From Streptosporangiales bacterium (GTDB lineage: Bacteria > Actinomycetota > Actinomycetes > Streptosporangiales > Streptosporangiaceae): DNA of 40,954 nt. Positions 15,642-22,925 of the stretch are shown here, piece by piece (the first letter of the stretch is position 1; every line of letters begins with the position of its first letter). Under the pieces are notes generated by a model. The model saw only the letters and a list, made by a program, of their open reading frames with translations, made no database searches and was not told where the DNA came from. The DNA lies in contig WHSL01000026.1 of the NCBI GenBank assembly GCA_009380095.1, positions 1-40,954 on the forward strand, given 5' to 3'. The position numbers and the translations under genes are program-made.

Positions 15642-16415
15642 CTAGTCGACGTGATCGCGACGGAAGACCAAAGTCGTCCGCCCCAGCGTCACCCGCGAGC
15701 CGTCCGTGAGCAGGGCGCGTCGAACGGGCTCCCCATTGACACTCGTGCCGTTGGTGGACCCCAAATCGACCAAAACCATGTCATTATCCTCCATGCGGAG
15801 CTCCGCATGGTGCCGCGATACGCCCGGATCGACAAGCCGGAGGTCACAGTCCGTGCCCCGGCCCAGCATCGTCACCGGCGTCGTCAGCTCGTACGAACGC
15901 TGCTGACCCTGCGCCGCGGGACTGCCCACGATCGCGTCCCCGCCCGCCGTCACCAGCAGCCGCGGCCGGCCGCGCAACACGCCACCGCCACCGCGTGGGA
16001 GGTCGCTCACCGGCTGCCGGATCTCGCCGCCCTCGACCGTGGACCCGCGGATCACGCCCGAACGGATCCGGAACCGGCCGCGGCCCAGGTCATCCGTACC
16101 CTCGAAGCGCACCCGGACCGGGCCGACGAACGAATAGCCCTGCTCCGTCGCGTAGTCCCGCGCCAGCGTTGCCAACTCCTGGCCCATGTTCTCCGCGAAC
16201 ACCGAGAGCCGGGAATTGTCGGCGTCACCCAGCTCCACCACGAAATCGTTCGGAACCAGCGTGCGCCCCTGGGCGACGATCGCCGCCCGCTCGTCCATCT
16301 CCCGCTGAACCGCACTCGCGATCTCAACAGGTTGGAGCTCAGATGGGAATGCGCGCGCGAACGCACCCTCGACCAGGCCTTCGAGGCGTCGCTCGAAGCG
16401 CTGAAGGACTCCCAC
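15642..16415 (-). CDS. fhaA: FHA-domain protein FhaA (DUF3662 + FHA)
   Basis: A 257-residue cytosolic protein and first gene of the operon. The N-terminal DUF3662 domain (about 1-115) begins GVLQRFERRLEGLVEGAFARAF, and the C-terminal FHA domain (about 165-250) shows TMLGRGTDCDLRL, SRHHAEL and LGSTNGTSVNG. In mycobacteria FhaA binds phosphorylated pseudokinase MviN and restrains peptidoglycan synthesis. The DUF3662-FHA linker is short compared with the mycobacterial protein. The GTG start has a purine-rich GGGAAGG upstream. A promoter candidate and a perfect DnaA box lie 18-58 bp upstream. Confidence 0.92.
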   Translation of the reverse strand: MGVLQRFERRLEGLVEGAFARAFPSELQPVEIASAVQREMDERAAIVAQGRTLVPNDFVVELGDADNSRLSVFAENMGQELATLARDYATEQGYSFVGPVRVRFEGTDDLGRGRFRIRSGVIRGSTVEGGEIRQPVSDLPRGGGGVLRGRPRLLVTAGGDAIVGSPAAQGQQRSYELTTPVTMLGRGTDCDLRLVDPGVSRHHAELRMEDNDMVLVDLGSTNGTSVNGEPVRRALLTDGSRVTLGRTTLVFRRDHVD

Positions 16416-16432
16416 GCCTACCTCCCTTCCCC

Positions 16433-16473
16433 TGTGGACAACGATCGTATCGGCGTACGGAGCTCCGGGTCAG
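16433..16473 (-). promoter_or_regulatory. Candidate fhaA operon promoter with overlapping DnaA box
   Basis: On the minus strand, CTGACC (16468-16473 forward) and TACGAT (16444-16449) are spaced 18 nt, a fair sigma-70-like -35/-10 pair. Seven or so bases downstream of the -10, at the predicted transcription start, lies TTGTCCACA (forward 16433-16441 as TGTGGACAA), the preferred DnaA box in Streptomyces. The fhaA GTG follows 18 bp later. Confidence 0.45.
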
Positions 16474-16498
16474 ACGTGCTAATCTGACGCAGTCGCTC

Positions 16499-16581
16499 GG
16501 GCGGGTGGCGGAACGGCAGACGCGCACGGTTCAGGTCCGTGTGTCCGCGAGGACGTGAGGGTTCAAATCCCTCCTCGCCCA
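16499..16581 (+). tRNA. tRNA-Leu (anticodon CAG)
   Basis: A class II tRNA of 83 nt. The acceptor stem is 16499-16505 with 16574-16580 (one G-U pair) and a discriminator A. The anticodon stem CACGG/CCGTG encloses TTCAGGT, with anticodon CAG at 16532-16534. A long variable arm (16543-16554, GTCC/GGAC) marks it as Leu. The T-arm is GAGGG-TTCAAAT-CCCTC. CCA is not encoded. This tRNA-Leu beside fhaA is a conserved actinobacterial arrangement. Confidence 0.95.
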
Positions 16582-16601
16582 CGAGTCGACCTCGTTTGGT
16601 C

Positions 16602-16619
16602 GGTGCCCTTCTCGGCACC
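16602..16619 (+). terminator. Possible tRNA-Leu terminator hairpin
   Basis: GGTGCC (16602-16607) and GGCACC (16614-16619) form a 6-bp stem with a 6-nt loop, starting 21 bp after the tRNA and followed by two T residues. It is short, so the call is tentative. Confidence 0.4.
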
Positions 16620-16629
16620 TTCCCGGCGG

Positions 16630-16670
16630 GGCCGCGATGCTTTTCGGGGCGATGACCCCCCGCACCCCCC
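16630..16670. repeat. Dispersed GC-rich intergenic repeat, copy A
   Basis: The segment GCGATGCTTTTCGGGGCGA, followed by two C-runs, resembles 21446-21487 (GCGGTGCTTTCCCGGGG, then GCGA and C-runs). Order and spacing of TGCTTT, the G-run, GCGA and ACCCCCC are shared, in the same orientation. Two copies in unrelated intergenic regions suggest a dispersed element. Confidence 0.45.
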
Positions 16671-17008
16671 ACTGTCCTCGGGCGCAGCGCGCCCTGTGGC
16701 GATCCCCCGTCCGGTGGGCTTCCCCCTTCGGGCCCGCCTTCGTGGACATTCTGGTCCTGACTTGCTTGGGGATGTGGGCGTTCCCTGTCATTGGTGATGG
16801 CTGATTTTGCGGGAGTCATCTTGTGTAGGACGCGTGGCGGTGCGTTCGGGATGACCTGGCTCTGCCGGTGATCTTGAGGGGTCGGTCACATTTCTGGGGT
16901 GTTCGTGCCTTTGTTGAGGTGTTGATGGTCGATCGGGGGTTTTGGTGGGATTCTGGGAGTTCGCTTTGAGCTCGAGCCGGTTCCGCCGGGACCAGCGGGA
17001 GGCCGGGG

Positions 17009-18184
17009 ATGGCGAATATTGCTGGACGGAAGGTGCCCGTTGACGCTGGGGCGTTGTGGGGGGTGCGGAGTCTTGCCATTGGGATCGAGGAGGAGTTTCT
17101 TGTCGTCGATCCGGTGAGTCGGGAGGTTGTGTCGCGGGCTGATGCCGTGGTGGCGAGGGCGGCGGGGGTGCTGGGGCCGTGTGTCAGTGCGGAGGTCACG
17201 CGGTTTCAGGTCGAGGTGATGACGCCGCCCAGTACGTCGCTGGCGGAGTTGGGCGGGCATGTTTCGCATATTCGGGGGGCTGCGGGTGAGGCCGCTCGGG
17301 CCGAAGGCGTGGGGGTGGTGGCCTCTGGTTCGCCGGTGTTGGGGGCTGTGGTTCCTGTGCCGGTGACCGATAAGCCGCGGTATCGGGACTCCGCGCGGCG
17401 GTTCCGGGCCTTGCTGGACGAGCAGTGCATCTGCGGTGTGCACATCCATGTGGACGTGCCGGATCGGGAGCGTGCCGTTCTGGTCAGCAATCACCTTCGG
17501 CCTTGGTTACCGGTCTTGCTCGCCATGGCGGCCAACTCTCCGTACTGGTGTGGGCGGGACACCGGGTATGCGAGTTGGCGGACGTTGACGTGGAGTCGTT
17601 GGCCGGTGTCCGGGCCGCCGCCGTACTTCGAGTCGGTCGCGCATTACGACGCTCTTGTCGCCACGTTGCTGGACAACGGGGCGTTGATGGATGTCGGCAC
17701 CATCTACTGGGACGTGCGGCCGTCTGCGCACCTGCCGACGATCGAGTTACGGGTGGCGGACGTGCCGGCCGATCCGGAGGTCACCCTGCTGATCGCGGCA
17801 CTCGCCCGGGCGCTCGTGGCCACCGCGCTGGGTGATGTCGAGCGGGGGGAGTCGGCTTGGCCGATCCCTGGTGAGTTGTTGCGCAGTGCGTATTGGCGGG
17901 CCGCTCGGGACGGTCTCTCCGGGTCCGGGGTGGATCCGGCTTCGGGGCGGTTGCTGCCGGCCACCGACTTGGTGTTGCGGCTGCTGCATCGTTGCCGGGC
18001 CGCTCTTGACGCCGGTGGCGATCTCACTTTCGCGATGGCCGCGGTTGACCGGTTGCTGCGGGACGGGGACGGGGCGTCGCGGCAGCGGGCGGCGTACGCG
18101 CGGCGGGGACGGCTCACCGACGTGGTGGACGTGTTGCTGGACCGTACGGCGGGCCGGCCCGTCTCGCGGTCCGCGGCGCCCTGA
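17009..18184 (+). CDS. Carboxylate-amine ligase, glutamate-cysteine ligase family 2 (YbdK-like)
   Basis: A 391-residue cytosolic ATP-dependent ligase of the GCS2 family. Key blocks are IGIEEEFLVVD near residue 25 (metal/ATP-binding acidic residues), CGVHIHVDVPD (about 141-151), the MAANSPYWCGRDTG region and TIELRVADVP (about 244-253). Family members join gamma-glutamate or a similar carboxylate to an amine or cysteine; the true substrate is uncertain. The ATG has GGGAGG 6 nt upstream. Codon use differs from neighbours: many G- or T-ending codons (GTT, GCT, TTG, GGG) and two TTA leucine codons (17507, 17747). This suggests local strand bias, acquisition, or bldA-type control. Confidence 0.88.
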   Translation: MANIAGRKVPVDAGALWGVRSLAIGIEEEFLVVDPVSREVVSRADAVVARAAGVLGPCVSAEVTRFQVEVMTPPSTSLAELGGHVSHIRGAAGEAARAEGVGVVASGSPVLGAVVPVPVTDKPRYRDSARRFRALLDEQCICGVHIHVDVPDRERAVLVSNHLRPWLPVLLAMAANSPYWCGRDTGYASWRTLTWSRWPVSGPPPYFESVAHYDALVATLLDNGALMDVGTIYWDVRPSAHLPTIELRVADVPADPEVTLLIAALARALVATALGDVERGESAWPIPGELLRSAYWRAARDGLSGSGVDPASGRLLPATDLVLRLLHRCRAALDAGGDLTFAMAAVDRLLRDGDGASRQRAAYARRGRLTDVVDVLLDRTAGRPVSRSAAP

Positions 18185-18199
18185 CGGGGCGGCGCCTGG

Positions 18200-18868
18200 T
18201 CAGCCGCTCGCGGCGCCGCCGGCGGTGGAGGCCGCGACCACGGCGGCGATCACCGCGGCGTTGATGGAGTCGATGACCGAGCGCACCGCCTTGCCGGCCC
18301 ACGCCCCGTCGCTGATCTCCTTCATCCGCCGTTTCACCAGCCCGCGGTCGATGTCCGGAAAGACCTTGCGATCCATCCGGCAGGCATGCACCAGGCAGAG
18401 CAGCGCCGCCGTGCGGTCGTCCGCCTGCTGCACGCCGCGCAACGTGTCCGCGAGGCGCGTACGGACCGCGAGCTCCGGACCCGGATCGCGCTCCGGGAAC
18501 CGCTGCACGGGGAAGAGGCCGAGCACGCGGTGCTGCTCCTCGCTGAGCACGCCGCGCTGCGCGAGACCGTCCAGCAGCCCGCGCTGCAGCTCCTTGCCCT
18601 GGAGCTTGCGGACCCACCAGTCCGCCTTGCGGGGCTTCAACTCGTCCCCGATGCGGTCCAGCGCGGTGTCCACCTCGGGGTTGCCGACGGGCGTCCGGTC
18701 GATCGCCGCGACCCGGCCGTGGGCGAGGTCCACCCGGCCGTGCAGGGTGAGTTCGAGCAGGAGCGAACCGGCGAGCCCGCAGTTGATCTCGGTGCCGCCG
18801 GCGAGAGGGCGGCCCGAGGACTCGTCATAGGCGAGGAGCAGGAACTCCTCCGCGAGCGTCAGCGCCAT
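18200..18868 (-). CDS. GPP34 (GOLPH3/VPS74-like) family protein
   Basis: A 222-residue protein with the GPP34 fold signature: N-terminal LTLAEEFLLLAYDESSG, the EINCGLAGSLLLELTLHGRV helix region, a beta-hairpin segment around GLLDGLAQRGVLSEEQHRVLG, and a C-terminal helical tail rich in Ala (INAAVIAAVVAASTAGG) that is hydrophobic enough to touch membrane. Eukaryotic members bind phosphatidylinositol-4-phosphate at the Golgi; the actinobacterial role is not established. It is convergent with the ligase gene (15-bp gap) and divergent from tenA. Confidence 0.88.
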   Translation of the reverse strand: MALTLAEEFLLLAYDESSGRPLAGGTEINCGLAGSLLLELTLHGRVDLAHGRVAAIDRTPVGNPEVDTALDRIGDELKPRKADWWVRKLQGKELQRGLLDGLAQRGVLSEEQHRVLGLFPVQRFPERDPGPELAVRTRLADTLRGVQQADDRTAALLCLVHACRMDRKVFPDIDRGLVKRRMKEISDGAWAGKAVRSVIDSINAAVIAAVVAASTAGGAASG

Positions 18869-18958
18869 AGGACGAACCTATTCGATCCGGACGATTGGCG
18901 CGGGCCGGGGGGTGGACCGGATCGCGCCGGGCCCCGGCCGCCTGGAACACTCGCCGCT

Positions 18959-19573
18959 ATGAGTGTGGCAGAGCACCTCGAACGGATCGGGCGGGCGCAC
19001 GTCGCCGAGCAGCTCGCCCATCCCACCGTGGCCGGCATCGCCCGTGGTGACCTCGACGACCGCTCCTTCGCCTGGTGGCTGGAACAGGACTACCTCTACC
19101 TGCTCGACTACGTCCGGGTGTTCACCCGGCTGGCCTGGCAGGCCCCGGACGGGCACCTCGGGGACCTCGTGGACCTGGCCCACGCCACCTGGCACGACGA
19201 GCTCGATCTGCACCGTGGGCTGGCCGCCGAGTTCGGCGCGGACCTGGAGGGCGCGGTCAAGGGCCCGGCCTGCGACGCGTACACCTCCTGGCTGCTCGCC
19301 GCGGCCGCCGACTACGCGGACGGGCTCGCCGCCCTCTACCCGTGCATGTGGGGCTACTCCACGCTGGGCCGCGAGCTCGCCGCCGCGCCGCCCGCGGAGC
19401 CGCGCTTCCGGCGCTGGGTGGACACGTACGCCGACCCGGAGTTCGCCGTGCTGACCCGGCGCTGCGCGCAGATGCTGGACGAGGCCGTCGCCGACCCGGA
19501 GCGGGCGGAGCGGCTGTTCGTCGAGGGCATGCGGCACGAGCTCGCGTTCTGGGACGTACCGGAACGCGGCTGA
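18959..19573 (+). CDS. tenA: TenA family protein (thiaminase II / aminopyrimidine aminohydrolase)
   Basis: A 204-residue all-helical enzyme that hydrolyses thiamine-degradation aminopyrimidines for salvage of the HMP moiety. The catalytic Cys129 is in YPCMWGYSTLG and the active-site Glu194 in GMRHELAFWD; the QDYLYLLDY helix carries the substrate-contacting Asp/Tyr residues. The ATG at 18959 gives the family length (about 200-230). It lies 18 bp before the Fpg/Nei gene, so the two are probably co-transcribed. The TPP-riboswitch-controlled permease 2 kb downstream fits the same salvage pathway. Confidence 0.9.
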   Translation: MSVAEHLERIGRAHVAEQLAHPTVAGIARGDLDDRSFAWWLEQDYLYLLDYVRVFTRLAWQAPDGHLGDLVDLAHATWHDELDLHRGLAAEFGADLEGAVKGPACDAYTSWLLAAAADYADGLAALYPCMWGYSTLGRELAAAPPAEPRFRRWVDTYADPEFAVLTRRCAQMLDEAVADPERAERLFVEGMRHELAFWDVPERG

Positions 19574-19591
19574 TCCGGGCACACTGTTGGT

Positions 19592-20455
19592 ATGCCGGAG
19601 CTTCCCGAGGTTGAGGCGCTCGCCGGATTCCTGCGCGAGCGCGCCGTGGGCCGTACGGTCGCGCGTGCCGACGTGGCGGCCATCTCTGCGCTGAAGACCT
19701 ACGATCCGCCGGTCACGGCGCTCGCCGGGCTCACCGTGACGGGCGTGTCCCGGCACGGCAAGTTCCTCGACATCGACGCCGACGGCGTGCACCTGGTGAT
19801 GCACCTGGCGCGCGGCGGCTGGCTGCGGTGGAAGGAGGAGCTGCCCAAGGCCCCGCCGAAGCCGGGCGGCAAGAACCCGCTGGCGCTGCGGGTGCACCTG
19901 GACGACGGGTCGGGCTTCGACCTGACCGAGGCGGGCACGCAGAAGCGCCTCGCGGTGTACGTGGTGCACGACCCGCAGCAGGTGCCCGGGGTGGCGCGGC
20001 TCGGCCCCGACCCGCTGGCCGAGGACTTCACCGAGCAGAGCCTGGCGGGGCTGCTGGCCGGGCGGCGTACCCAGATCAAGGGGCTGCTGCGGGACCAGAG
20101 CGTGATCGCCGGGATCGGCAACGCCTACTCCGACGAGGTGCTGCACGTCGCGAAGATGTCACCGTTCAAGATCGCGGCGACGCTCACCGAGGCGGACGTG
20201 GCCCTCCTCTACAAGTCGATCGTGGAGACGCTGACCGACGCGGTCGAGCGCTCCCAGGGGCTCGCCGTCGGCGACCTCAAGGCGGAGAAGAAGACCGGCC
20301 TGCGCGTGCATGGCAAGGCCGGGCAGCCCTGCCCGGTGTGCGGTGACTCCGTGCGCGAGGTGTCGTTCGCGGACAGCTCGCTGCAGTACTGCCCGACCTG
20401 CCAGACCGGCGGCAAGCCGCTGGCCGACCGCCGGCTGTCGCGCCTGCTCAAATAG
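19592..20455 (+). CDS. Fpg/Nei family DNA glycosylase
   Basis: A 287-residue base-excision repair glycosylase/AP lyase. The N-terminus PELPEVE supplies the catalytic Pro2 and Glu3. GIGNAYSDEVL (about 171) is the helix-two-turn-helix region. The C-terminal zinc finger reads CPVC...CPTC with about 17 residues between pairs. After the last Cys the sequence is QTGGKPLADRRLSRLLK rather than the usual arginine-containing QR tip of FPG zinc fingers, so lesion recognition may differ from classical MutM. It follows tenA by 18 bp. Confidence 0.9.
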   Translation: MPELPEVEALAGFLRERAVGRTVARADVAAISALKTYDPPVTALAGLTVTGVSRHGKFLDIDADGVHLVMHLARGGWLRWKEELPKAPPKPGGKNPLALRVHLDDGSGFDLTEAGTQKRLAVYVVHDPQQVPGVARLGPDPLAEDFTEQSLAGLLAGRRTQIKGLLRDQSVIAGIGNAYSDEVLHVAKMSPFKIAATLTEADVALLYKSIVETLTDAVERSQGLAVGDLKAEKKTGLRVHGKAGQPCPVCGDSVREVSFADSSLQYCPTCQTGGKPLADRRLSRLLK

Positions 20456-20469
20456 CCGGACGCGGGGCC

Positions 20470-20913
20470 TCAGGAGAGCTGCAGCACCGGCCCCATGTTC
20501 TGCCAGCGGGTGATCTCACACCCATTGGTGCGGCTGAAGGACGCGTCGACCTGCTCTCCCTTCAACGTGCCGGTCACGGTGGCCTTCTCCGGGCCGCCGA
20601 ACTGCTGCGTGCACATCTGGTCGGGGTCGGGCTTCTTGAACGCCTTGGCGGACAGGTTCGTCAGCTTCGTGCAGGCGGCCTGCGCCCGCGGGTGGTCGCC
20701 GCCGTTGGGCTCACAGGTCAGCCGCGCCTTCTTGGGCTCGGCACCCGGCTCGGGGGTGACCGTGACGGTCAGTTCGGTCTTGGGCTTCTGCTGCTCGGGA
20801 GCGCCCACGTCCACCTGATCCTGCCCGCCGCCGTCACTGCCTGCACAGGCGGCGAGCAGCGTCAGGGCGGCGGTGGACACGGCCGCTCCGGCGATCGCTT
20901 TCACGCTCCTCAT
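20470..20913 (-). CDS. Lipoprotein with subtilisin-inhibitor (SSI)-like domain
   Basis: A 147-residue secreted lipoprotein. The signal peptide ends in the lipobox LLAAC, with Cys23 as the lipidation site, followed by a Gly/Gln/Pro-rich linker. The C-terminal domain (about 60-145) has the four cysteines and spacing of Streptomyces subtilisin inhibitor: LTCEP, QAACTKL, QMCTQQF and NGCEITRW, plus HPRAQAAC and a TVTGTLKGEQV strand. Aligning CTQQ with the SSI reactive loop CPMV puts Gln at P1, which is unusual for a subtilisin inhibitor. It may be a membrane-tethered protease inhibitor or a repurposed fold. Start chosen at the ATG 20913; its ribosome-binding site is weak. Confidence 0.78.
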   Translation of the reverse strand: MRSVKAIAGAAVSTAALTLLAACAGSDGGGQDQVDVGAPEQQKPKTELTVTVTPEPGAEPKKARLTCEPNGGDHPRAQAACTKLTNLSAKAFKKPDPDQMCTQQFGGPEKATVTGTLKGEQVDASFSRTNGCEITRWQNMGPVLQLS

Positions 20914-20991
20914 GGCGATTCGACGCGGCGGGCTCCGGCATGGTTCCGTGGACCCCGCGAACGTTCGCCGATCACGAGGCTTGGGGGATCC

Positions 20992-21324
20992 ATGAACGAA
21001 ACGGGTGTGCCGGCCGTCGAGGCCAAGGCCGTGCCCGAGGACGCGTACCTGCTCGACGTCCGGGAGGACGACGAGTGGCAGGCCGGGCGCGCTCCCCACG
21101 CGACGCACATCCCGATGTCGGCCCTTGCCGAGCGGGCGGGCGAGGTCCCCCAGGACCGCGACGTGTACGTGATCTGCCGCTCCGGCGGCCGGTCCGCGCG
21201 CGCGGTCACCGCGCTCAACCAGGCCGGCTGGAAGGCCACCAACGTGACCGGCGGCATGCGGGCGTGGGCCTTCGCCGGCCGCCCCATGGTCGCCGACGAG
21301 GGGTCCGACCCTTCGGTCATCTAG
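20992..21324 (+). CDS. Rhodanese-like domain protein (single domain)
   Basis: A 110-residue cytosolic single-domain rhodanese. It shows the LLDVREDDEWQAGRAPHATH start of the fold and the active-site loop with Cys62 in CRSGGRSA. The C-terminal block NVTGGMRAWAFAGRP is also typical. Such proteins carry sulfane sulfur as a persulfide on the Cys and deliver it to sulfur metabolism or detoxification. The ATG at 20992 has GGGGGA a few bases upstream. It is divergent from the SSI-like lipoprotein gene (78-bp gap). Confidence 0.87.
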   Translation: MNETGVPAVEAKAVPEDAYLLDVREDDEWQAGRAPHATHIPMSALAERAGEVPQDRDVYVICRSGGRSARAVTALNQAGWKATNVTGGMRAWAFAGRPMVADEGSDPSVI

Positions 21325-21360
21325 CCCGTCGGGGTACATTGCCGTCTGCCAACTGAAGAT

Positions 21361-21568
21361 GCCGCGGGAGCTCGGGCCAGACCGGGCTGAGAGGGCGGCC
21401 GAGGCGGGTTCCCCTGTTCGCGAATCATTCTGATTCGCTCCCCGGGGGCCCGCGGTGCTTTCCCGGGGGGCGACCCCCGGACCCCCCGCCCGAGGGCCGG
21501 GCCTGGGGACGTGGGCATGGCGCCGCCGACCGCACGAACCTGTCCGGATAATGCCGGCGTAGGGAGTG
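21361..21568 (+). promoter_or_regulatory. TPP (thiamine pyrophosphate) riboswitch with enlarged internal arm
   Basis: The 5' half holds a stem GCTCGG/CCGGGC (21370-21375 with 21382-21387) followed directly by the invariant TGAGA (21388-21392) within CTGAGA. The 3' half is GAACCTG (21536-21542), then TCCGGATAATGCCGG (21543-21557), then CGTAGGGAG (21558-21566), the classical thi-box. GGGCGGC (21393-21399) can pair with GCCGCC near 21522-21527 to form the variable arm, which is extended to over 130 nt. GGGAG (21562-21566) is also the ribosome-binding site, 6 nt before the permease GTG, so TPP binding should block translation. P1 pairing is not clear to me. Confidence 0.85.
21446..21487. repeat. 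Dispersed GC-rich repeat, copy B, inside the riboswitch arm
   Basis: This copy resembles 16630-16670. It contains CCGGGGG-GCGA-CCCCCGG (21463-21480), a perfect 7-bp stem capped by a GNRA tetraloop. A second perfect hairpin, GCGAATCA-TTC-TGATTCGC, precedes it at 21420-21438. Both lie in the variable arm of the TPP riboswitch. Confidence 0.5.
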
Positions 21569-21572
21569 TGAC

Positions 21573-22925
21573 GTGAGTCCTGCCCTCGATCAGCGGACCG
21601 ACCGCAAGGCACCTGCCGACGAGGTGCCGTACACCCTCGAGGCACCGGCCCCCAGGCCGCTGAGCTTCGCCGATCAGGGCGCCTTCTGGGCCAACCTCGG
21701 CGTCAGCCTGCTGGGCTTCAGCGGCGCGTACACCGTGCTCGCCCCGCCCGGGGCCGCGCCCCTCTCGCTGGTGGCCGCGCTGGTGGCGACCGCCGTGGGC
21801 ACCCTGCTCGGCAGCGTCATGGTGGGGCTCGCCGCCATCCCCGGCGCGCGCACCGGCGCCCCGTCCATGGTGCTGCTGCGCGGACTGTTCGGCACCCGCC
21901 CGTCGTACGTGCCCACCGTGCTCAACATCGTCCAGCTGATCGGCTGGGGCACGTTCGAGCTGATCGTGATCGCGCAGGCCGCGCAGTCCATCCTCGGCGA
22001 CGCGGTGCCGCGCTGGGTGTGCGTGGTCGCCGCCGGCGTGCTGACCACCGCGCTCACGCTGCGCCCGCTCGGCGCGGTCCGGCTGCTGCGCAGGTACGTG
22101 ACGATCGCCGTGGTCATCGCGATGGGCTACTTCGCGTGGCGGCTGCTCAGCGAGCCCCTCCCCGCTCTCACCGAGGGCTCCTGGACCGGCTTCTGGGCCG
22201 GCGCGGACGCCGCGCTCGCGGTGGCGGTCTCCTGGGTGCCGCTGGCCGCCGACTACTCGCGGCACTCCCGCACCCCGGGCACCGCCTTCGGCAGCGCGGT
22301 CACCGCGTACTCGATCACCCAGACCGCCTGCTACGCGCTCGGCTTCGTGGCGCTGATCCTCGTCGCCGGCGACCCTGACCGCGTGTTCGACCCGTTCCTC
22401 GCGGTCCCGCTCGGTGCGCTGTTCTTCGCGGTGCTGGTGCTGCGCGAGGTCGACCAGTCCTTCGCGAACGTCTACTCCACCGCGGTCTCCGTACAGAACC
22501 TGCGGCCGAAGGCCGACCGGCGGGTGCTCTGCCTGGGGATCGGCGCGCTCACCACCGTCCTCGCGGTCATCTTCGACATCGGCGCGTACGCCGAGTTCCT
22601 GCTGCTGATCGGCTCGGTCTTCGTGCCGCTGCTCGCCGTGCTGGTGGTGGACTACTTCCTGTTCTCCCGGGGCCGCGAGTGGAACATCTCCACGGACGCG
22701 CCGGTGCGGTACGGGATGCTGCTCGCCTGGGTGCTCGGCTTCGTGGCGCACCACGTCGTCGCCCCCGGCGGTGGCGGCTGGTGGACCCACCTGTGGACCG
22801 AGGCGCAGCGGCTGATCGGCTACACCCCGCAGTCATGGGTGAGCGCGTCGCTGCTGTCGTTCCTCGTCGCGGGCGGGGTGGCGGCGGTCGTCGACCTCGT
22901 CGCGGCGCGCCGGCGCGGGGCCTGA
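21573..22925 (+). CDS. NCS1-family permease, putative HMP/cytosine transporter (CytX-like)
   Basis: A 450-residue polytopic transporter with about 12 membrane segments. Features of the nucleobase:cation symporter-1 family include SFADQGAFWANLGVSLLG after the N-terminus, the LNIVQLIGWGTFELIVIA segment, the WVPLAADYSRHSR block and the FANVYSTAVSVQN region. The TPP riboswitch directly upstream makes uptake of a thiamine precursor such as hydroxymethylpyrimidine the most likely role (CytX group). The GTG start uses the riboswitch GGGAG as its ribosome-binding site. It converges on ogt with a 1-bp gap. Confidence 0.87.
   Translation: MSPALDQRTDRKAPADEVPYTLEAPAPRPLSFADQGAFWANLGVSLLGFSGAYTVLAPPGAAPLSLVAALVATAVGTLLGSVMVGLAAIPGARTGAPSMVLLRGLFGTRPSYVPTVLNIVQLIGWGTFELIVIAQAAQSILGDAVPRWVCVVAAGVLTTALTLRPLGAVRLLRRYVTIAVVIAMGYFAWRLLSEPLPALTEGSWTGFWAGADAALAVAVSWVPLAADYSRHSRTPGTAFGSAVTAYSITQTACYALGFVALILVAGDPDRVFDPFLAVPLGALFFAVLVLREVDQSFANVYSTAVSVQNLRPKADRRVLCLGIGALTTVLAVIFDIGAYAEFLLLIGSVFVPLLAVLVVDYFLFSRGREWNISTDAPVRYGMLLAWVLGFVAHHVVAPGGGGWWTHLWTEAQRLIGYTPQSWVSASLLSFLVAGGVAAVVDLVAARRRGA

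Follow-up and report, generated by a model that had tools for sequence, protein, structure and literature searches.

An earlier survey of TPP riboswitches found the optional P3a stem-loop in 552 sequences and missing from 355, and its available text reports that riboswitch arms tolerate long "variable insertions" and that a ribosome-binding site within the aptamer is frequent in Actinobacteria (PMC2258182). Several kinds of dispersed hairpin repeat have been described in bacterial genomes. The Rickettsia palindromic elements (RPE) are given as hairpin-forming repeats of 105-150 bp, with several copies per genome, that lie in frame in protein genes and are also inserted in RNA genes, among which tmRNA and RNase P RNA are named (PMC2229807, PMC10969869). 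The beta-proteobacterial BRE measure about 90 bp, reach up to 29 copies per genome and are mostly intergenic, with some at gene ends or within coding sequences, according to the accessible part of their description (PMC3110155). That MITEs might form riboswitches or terminators has been called conceivable in a review (PMC10969869).

Here we describe a TPP riboswitch variant made by the insertion of a dispersed repeat. It lies in the window, by which we mean the whole stretch of 40,954 nucleotides that was analysed. With the TPP riboswitch family (RF00059) it has in common the invariant core, helices P2 to P5, the CTGAGA motif, the optional P3a, a ribosome-binding site inside the aptamer and a CytX-like transporter gene downstream; it differs in the length of its arm (143 nt versus 24-58 nt in relatives) and in an Rfam score of 34.3 bits, below 54.3. 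Its repeat resembles RPE in being hairpin-forming, multi-copy and present in protein and RNA genes, a likeness by description for which no sequence relation is claimed, whereas here copies stand directly at stable-RNA 3′ ends, a riboswitch arm contains one copy, and terminal inverted repeats were not found by eye. The BRE, compared likewise by description and not by sequence, are similar in size, copy number and placement but belong to another phylum, and the available part of their description gives no riboswitch or tRNA link (PMC3110155). The "mobile attenuators" (PMC2965389) are, like this repeat, dispersed structured elements in leaders of unrelated genes; as far as the accessible text describes them they are IS terminators, whereas here no T-run terminator was found (positions 16400-21700) and the copy lies inside an aptamer. 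REP/MITE-type repeats, as portrayed in the available text of the review, are also dispersed, palindromic and non-coding (PMC10969869), but here the own genome yielded no Y1 transposase and neither inverted repeats nor a target-site duplication were seen by eye. In the open PMC literature, within the terms used, neither a repeat of this kind nor a riboswitch arm derived from one came to light, and we make no claim beyond that literature.

The riboswitch ahead of the CytX-like permease gene

The original prediction was that a TPP riboswitch with split halves and a structured arm precedes a CytX-like permease gene. When the whole window was searched against Rfam, no TPP match reached the gathering score and only a tRNA passed. 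The TPP model (RF00059) matched positions 21482-21582 with 34.3 bits, below its gathering score of 54.3, which is a detection threshold and no structural feature, and the 5′ half of this match was misplaced inside the insert. Since Rfam by itself is ambiguous on the TPP identity of the leader, CytX orthologs were gathered for a comparison within the lineage. A CytX match at E<=0.001 was present in 108 of 150 family genomes, weaker permease homologs included; 80 CytX loci were kept of 167. The comparison covered the nearer 69 loci (L005-L073), and 40 distant ones (L074-L113) were left out. A thi-box with CTGAGA was found at 66 of the 69 relatives' loci, with arms of 24-58 nt, and no box was found at L068, L069 and L072, the last of which starts at the gene. 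After removal of 18 identical or similar leaders, the remaining 48 were aligned alone and with the window. Two of the leaders (L013, L038) are identical to named ones, so that Actinoallomurus-like organisms belong to the family.

A TPP model built from the 48 orthologous leaders, without the window, found both halves of the riboswitch separately in the 501 bases searched, the 5′ half at 21349-21429 (31.0 bits, E 5.6e-07) and the 3′ half at 21473-21571 (47.4 bits, E 2.7e-10). A covariance-model match with the insertion masked had been proposed as a check, and these separate matches in effect answer it, with nothing masked. The features of the leader and its gene are as follows.

21364-21367, + strand: P2 5′ strand (GCGG), partner 21530-21533; from leader alignment and pair counts
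21370-21387, + strand: P3 hairpin, GCTCGG 21370-21375 with CCGGGC 21382-21387; from alignment and pair counts
21387-21392, + strand: CTGAGA, conserved thi-box motif, invariant in 49 of 49 alignment rows
21394-21399, + strand: P3a 5′ strand (GGCGGC), partner 21522-21527; from alignment and pair counts
21522-21533, + strand: P3a 3′ strand GCCGCC (21522-21527), GA, and P2 3′ strand CCGC (21530-21533); from alignment and pair counts
21536-21564, + strand: 3′ half of the thi-box, with P4 (CCT 21539-21541 and AGG 21561-21563) and P5 (CCGG 21544-21547 and CCGG 21554-21557); from alignment, pair counts and the leader model (47.4 bits)
21561-21566, + strand: Shine-Dalgarno AGGGAG, overlapping the P4 3′ strand, 6 nt ahead of the GTG start; from the window sequence and 47 of 48 relatives
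21573-22925, + strand: CytX-like permease gene, 450 aa, NCS1/PF02133; from TIGR02358 and PF02133 searches

All 53 columns that are invariant across the 48 leaders remain so with the window added, and the conserved core of a TPP riboswitch is thus present, with CTGAGA, GAACCTG, the P5 CCGG-loop-CCGG and GTAGGGA. The 23 core pairs of P2, P3, P3a, P4 and P5 (helix P1 was left out of the counted structure) are all standard in the window and can therefore form. Over 49 rows, 99.5% of the core pair cells are pairing and seven pairs are changed on both sides, and none of 500 shuffles came up to the alignment on even one of the five measures; 13 of the 23 pairs are constant and give no information. 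P3 is paired in 99.7% of cells, with one pair changed on both sides (three sequences), five of the six P3a pairs show double-sided changes in some sequences, and the seven pairs of P4 and P5 never vary. With the core invariants kept and each half matching the lineage model, the identification as a TPP riboswitch with a split thi-box and a structured arm is borne out. Its form suggests direct translation control, and TPP would be its ligand.

The halves of the thi-box (21364-21392 and 21522-21564) stand ahead of the GTG at 21573, and 143 nt separate CTGAGA (21387-21392) from GAACCTG (21536-21542). The long arm comes after CTGAGA and is therefore the optional P3a; P3 is not extended. Arms in the 48 relatives measure 24-58 nt (median 29), so that the window arm is longer by about 113 nt; an arm of 143 nt is exceptional in this lineage, much as had been claimed from an estimated distance of about 145 nt. 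An exact pattern for a comparable gap, which demands this lineage's flanking letters and would miss leaders with other flanks, matched in 2 of 341 family genomes, the window's own and G015; the match in G015 was false, its real thi-box having a short arm. Other CytX leaders with comparatively long P3a arms, of 54-58 nt, are those of L018/L051, L047 and L070. The window's own genome carries two more TPP riboswitches, which score 63.3 and 59.7 bits and are of the usual form, with arms of 28 nt (L001, counted from the first of two CTGAGA) and 27 nt. RF00059 matched in 199 of 200 family genomes scanned; the matches listed are the best-scoring ones and are of little use for arm length.

Two details that had been singled out turned out to be ordinary for the lineage. 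The motif CCTGTCC is indeed one A short of CCTGATCC, but 46 of 48 relatives lack this A too; likewise, the Shine-Dalgarno sequence does lie within the thi-box (21561-21566), but AGGGAG stands at P4 in 47 of 48 relatives.

The riboswitch lies upstream of a thiamin-related gene. The permease starts at GTG 21573 with an intact reading frame and matches TIGR02358 with 210.2 bits (E 5e-62), below the curated cut-off of 309.85, and PF02133 above its cut-off. The earlier designation as CytX-like can therefore be kept and would be of the right strength, the name hydroxymethylpyrimidine transporter coming from the family name only. A few genes upstream of the permease, at 18941-19570, lies a TenA/THI-4 family gene (PF03070) of the thiamin-salvage type, near which Rfam gave no TPP match at the gathering score.

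The insert and its repeat family

The window agrees with leaders L023 and L040, both GGGCGGC-TGT-CATGGCGCCGCCGACC, save that about 116 nt take the place of TGT. The empty site, as in L023, is GGGCGGC-TGT-CATGGCGCCGCCGACCGCACGAACCTG, and the filled site in the window is GGGCGGC, the 116 nt and CATGGCGCCGCCGACCGCACGAACCTG. The window leader is the one filled leader; all 66 relatives' leaders with a box are short-armed. The insert and the copies of the repeat in the window are listed below, with scores from two repeat models, R2 and R3. R2 was made from 19 copies, the window copy included, and because it contains that copy R3 was rebuilt from 18 rows with the window copy left out.

21400-21515, + strand: insert in the P3a loop, about 116 nt replacing the TGT of leaders L023 and L040; from alignment, ends uncertain by a few nt
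21399-21488, + strand: repeat element, 90-nt core with outer stem, covarying hairpin and GC-rich hairpin; 72.5 bits with R3, 78.8 bits with R2
21420-21438, + strand: perfect hairpin GCGAATCA-TTC-TGATTCGC, the covarying hairpin of the repeat family; from sequence and repeat alignment
21463-21480, + strand: perfect hairpin CCGGGGG-GCGA-CCCCCGG, the GC hairpin of the repeat family; from sequence and repeat alignment
16581-16671, + strand: second window copy, with its start at the tRNA-Leu(CAG) 3′ end (gene 16499-16582); 60.7 bits with R3, 55.0 bits with R2

Searched with blastn against its own genome, the insert gave 26 other matches at E<0.01; at E<=10 there were 48, of which the weakest are likely due to chance. 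The closest other copy (G000:C337:90-168) is 86% identical over 82 nt (E 7e-17) and lies behind a tRNA-Val(CAC) gene. Twenty-four copies were first aligned, and five that aligned poorly were dropped to leave the 19 rows (18 without the window); the repeat loci L137, L138, L140, L141 and L142 were left out of the alignment. In the own genome R2 matched 40 times at E<=0.1, 33 of these matches being at E<=0.01 and the window copy having 78.8 bits, and R3 recognized the window copy with 72.5 bits (E 6e-14). These matches show that the arm is part of a genome-wide palindromic repeat family. It is highly probable that a copy of this family filled the P3a arm here, a grade that holds jointly for the whole of the explanation that we prefer.

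The two perfect hairpins seen beforehand in the arm, one of 8 bp with a TTC loop and one of 7 bp with a GCGA loop, belong to this family. Its copies share an outer stem (from single folds), an inner hairpin and a barely varying GC hairpin. In the inner hairpin pairing is kept despite letter changes (38 double-changed cells versus 11.2 in shuffled alignments), and its covariation score is 0.380 versus 0.150 shuffled. Three of five covariation measures lay beyond all 500 shuffles, and the other two fell within them (double-change pairs, 6 vs 5.3; pair types, 14 vs 14.3). The repeat core alone folds slightly better than shuffles (z -1.78), 11 of 200 of which folded as well.

None of the 69 relatives' CytX loci, 40 of them searched with R2 and 29 with R3, gave a match to the repeat, and this includes the leaders with longer arms (L047, L051 and L070 with R2, L018 with R3). 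The family agrees with MITE-type elements in its many similar dispersed copies, its palindromic form with structure kept and its filled and empty sites; from the dispersal and these sites, the repeat appears to be mobile. Neither terminal inverted repeats nor a target-site duplication were seen by eye in 30 copies with flanks and at the TPP site. A REP/RAYT mechanism was considered and set aside, since no cognate Y1 transposase (PF01797) was found in the own genome (no match; 413 contigs, 97% complete). Plasmid and phage collections held no match to the repeat at E<=0.001.

Placement of the repeat copies

The placement of the 40 own-genome matches (E<=0.1) was compared with that of 43 tRNAs. 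Eight matches begin 0-3 nt past a tRNA 3′ end on the same strand, where about 0.004 would be expected; one of the eight, on C1, is weak (E 0.03). Where a match and a tRNA are 20 nt or less apart, which is so for eight matches, the match always has the strand of the tRNA and lies on its 3′ side, and when both strands and both sides were considered within 200 nt only one more match was found, 102 nt before a tRNA. Several weaker own-genome matches have no location class in these counts. The second copy in the window (16581-16671) is followed by the hairpin CTCGGGCGCAGCGCGCCCTG, and a near-identical hairpin stands behind many of the 30 copies inspected.

Other stable RNAs also have copies nearby. 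An Rfam scan of 20 own copies revealed an RNase P RNA that overlaps the first 12 nt of one copy, a 6C RNA 3 nt upstream of one copy and, before another, a c-di-AMP riboswitch at 25 nt distance. Behind six protein genes with Pfam support, those for EF-P, sigma-70, ribonucleotide reductase, LexA, DNA polymerase III delta-type and DUF3040, a copy lies on the strand of the gene, and two copies (L159, L170) are on the strand opposite to the neighbouring gene. Some copies stand upstream of genes, namely those for HNH, a RecF/RecN/SMC-type ATPase and malic enzyme; before the malic enzyme gene (G000:C201:19587-19755, minus strand) there are two tandem copies with a 5-nt overlap. Two copies appear in frame near an N-terminus, in CtaC and in an NlpC/P60 protein. 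In CtaC, the cytochrome oxidase subunit II (L150:1494-2339, G000:C311), the repeat encodes the N-terminal region before the lipoprotein signal; the start context and the longer N-terminus fit an in-frame insertion, and the N-termini of relatives vary, so that the case for such an insertion, as read from the gene sequence, is suggestive only. At L147:1296-1590 (G000:C79) a c-di-AMP riboswitch is followed by the NlpC/P60 gene, whose frame opens with the repeat copy.

The repeat is present in 21 of 41 genomes searched, the own included. Among 20 relatives' copies, hand-picked from the better-scoring matches, the start lies no more than 2 nt from a tRNA 3′ end in 11 and no more than 3 nt from a tmRNA 3′ end in one, and the other eight start at neither. 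The tRNAs that bear copies differ (Pro, Val, Ser, Ala, Asn, Leu, Met), and therefore these copies do not descend from one inherited site. The copy at the 3′ end of a tmRNA gene (L219, G201:C60) belongs to a genome from a different family within the order. In seven genera, the own included, the repeat was seen to start at tRNA or tmRNA 3′ ends.

Predicted effect of the insert on the riboswitch

Folding was predicted with ViennaRNA without ligand. In the window the probability of P2 and P3a is about zero, and P4 and P5 are paired. P3a has a mean probability of 0.83 in the relatives, none of the 48 being as low as the window, whereas P2 is low in the relatives too (mean 0.24, median 0.08, three of 48 as low). 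Forcing the aptamer fold costs 6.5 kcal/mol in the window and on average 1.9 (sd 1.9) in relatives, of which two of 48, with arms of 29 nt and 57 nt, have a penalty of at least 6.5 kcal/mol. P4, which overlaps the Shine-Dalgarno sequence, is predicted to be paired without ligand (0.97), and 46 of 48 relatives are no higher. The 215-nt leader as a whole folds no better than shuffles (z -0.48). In view of the near-zero P3a and the cost of 6.5 kcal/mol, regulation by the riboswitch may be weakened or impaired by the insert.

We consider it very probable that this is a TPP riboswitch for a CytX-like permease whose P3a was filled by a dispersed repeat, carried as a tolerated passenger. A copy of the palindrome-forming repeat, of about 115 bp, would have entered the loop of the optional P3a arm in this lineage and would fold into its own hairpins as an independent hairpin domain on P3a. 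Since the repeat would form hairpins of its own, the core nucleotides are left untouched, and the insertion is probably tolerated rather than an improvement. TPP-dependent translation control is the regulatory logic suggested by the leader: bound TPP would let P4 hold the AGGGAG Shine-Dalgarno sequence and so switch off translation of the permease, and when TPP is scarce the ribosome-binding site would open and the permease would be made. With the insert, about 110 nt more would have to be transcribed before the 3′ half is made, and competing partners for the P2 5′ strand would be present; a slower or weaker switch is a likely consequence of both. The intact core and the intact frame speak for continued use of the riboswitch, as judged from the sequence.

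A harsher consequence, which we regard as unlikely though not strongly so, is that the insertion broke the riboswitch, the aptamer losing the folding competition and the permease being expressed without TPP control. The collapse of P3a in the predicted folds and the cost of the aptamer fold point that way, but the invariant core nucleotides are all preserved and the permease still has an intact frame; equal penalties are carried by the two relatives with arms of 29 nt and 57 nt, and as P2 is weak in most relatives, a prediction of this kind cannot separate working from broken riboswitches. The predicted pairing of P4 without ligand would mean low permease expression. The suggestion made at the outset, that the arm is a purpose-built second sensor or a spacer that tunes folding speed, found no positive support and we hold it to be highly improbable: both hairpins are perfect, and relatives' arms of up to 58 nt indicate that the arm can grow, but its sequence is that of a repeat copy common to unrelated loci, and none of the 69 relatives' CytX loci contains the repeat. 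A tolerated passenger is the likelier of the two.

It is clearly unlikely, in our estimate, that the repeat adds control as a "mobile attenuator", its hairpins serving as a terminator or pause site so that the riboswitch acts on transcription as well as translation. The stable GC hairpin agrees with that proposal, as do the copies right behind tRNA genes (all eight within 20 nt on the 3′ side and on the tRNA strand), those at the 3′ ends of tmRNA, RNase P RNA and 6C RNA, and those on the same strand behind six Pfam-supported protein genes, which is a placement typical of terminators; the accessible text of one report moreover describes IS-spread terminators that were exapted upstream of genes in other bacteria (PMC2965389). 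However, a terminator scan found no hairpin with a T run in 16400-21700, which spans both window copies; the copies L149 (at tRNA-His) and L157 are followed by hairpin-like stretches of their own with a T run, as seen by eye; L159 and L170 are opposite in strand to the adjacent gene, and copies lie before or inside the starts of intact-looking genes (CtaC, NlpC/P60, the RecF/RecN/SMC-type ATPase, HNH, malic enzyme).

The insert helps to set the boundaries of the repeat family, and with the source family, the filled site and empty sites all available, the origin of the arm can be read directly and its cost can be measured. A finely folded RNA, too, can take up dispersed hairpin repeats. The placement at the 3′ ends of tRNA and tmRNA genes raises a testable question on 3′-end formation or targeting, and a repeat family with an affinity for the 3′ ends of stable RNAs is a more open question than the riboswitch itself. 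A distinctly doubtful extension is that a hairpin element of one actinobacterial order, presumably the Streptosporangiales, prefers the exact 3′ ends of stable RNAs (tRNA, tmRNA, RNase P RNA, 6C RNA), is kept as RNA structure by selection, entered the riboswitch as a ready-made domain and now alters the switch through termination, pausing or folding order. If the element does alter the switch, this leader would show how a regulatory RNA can acquire a domain from a mobile repeat.
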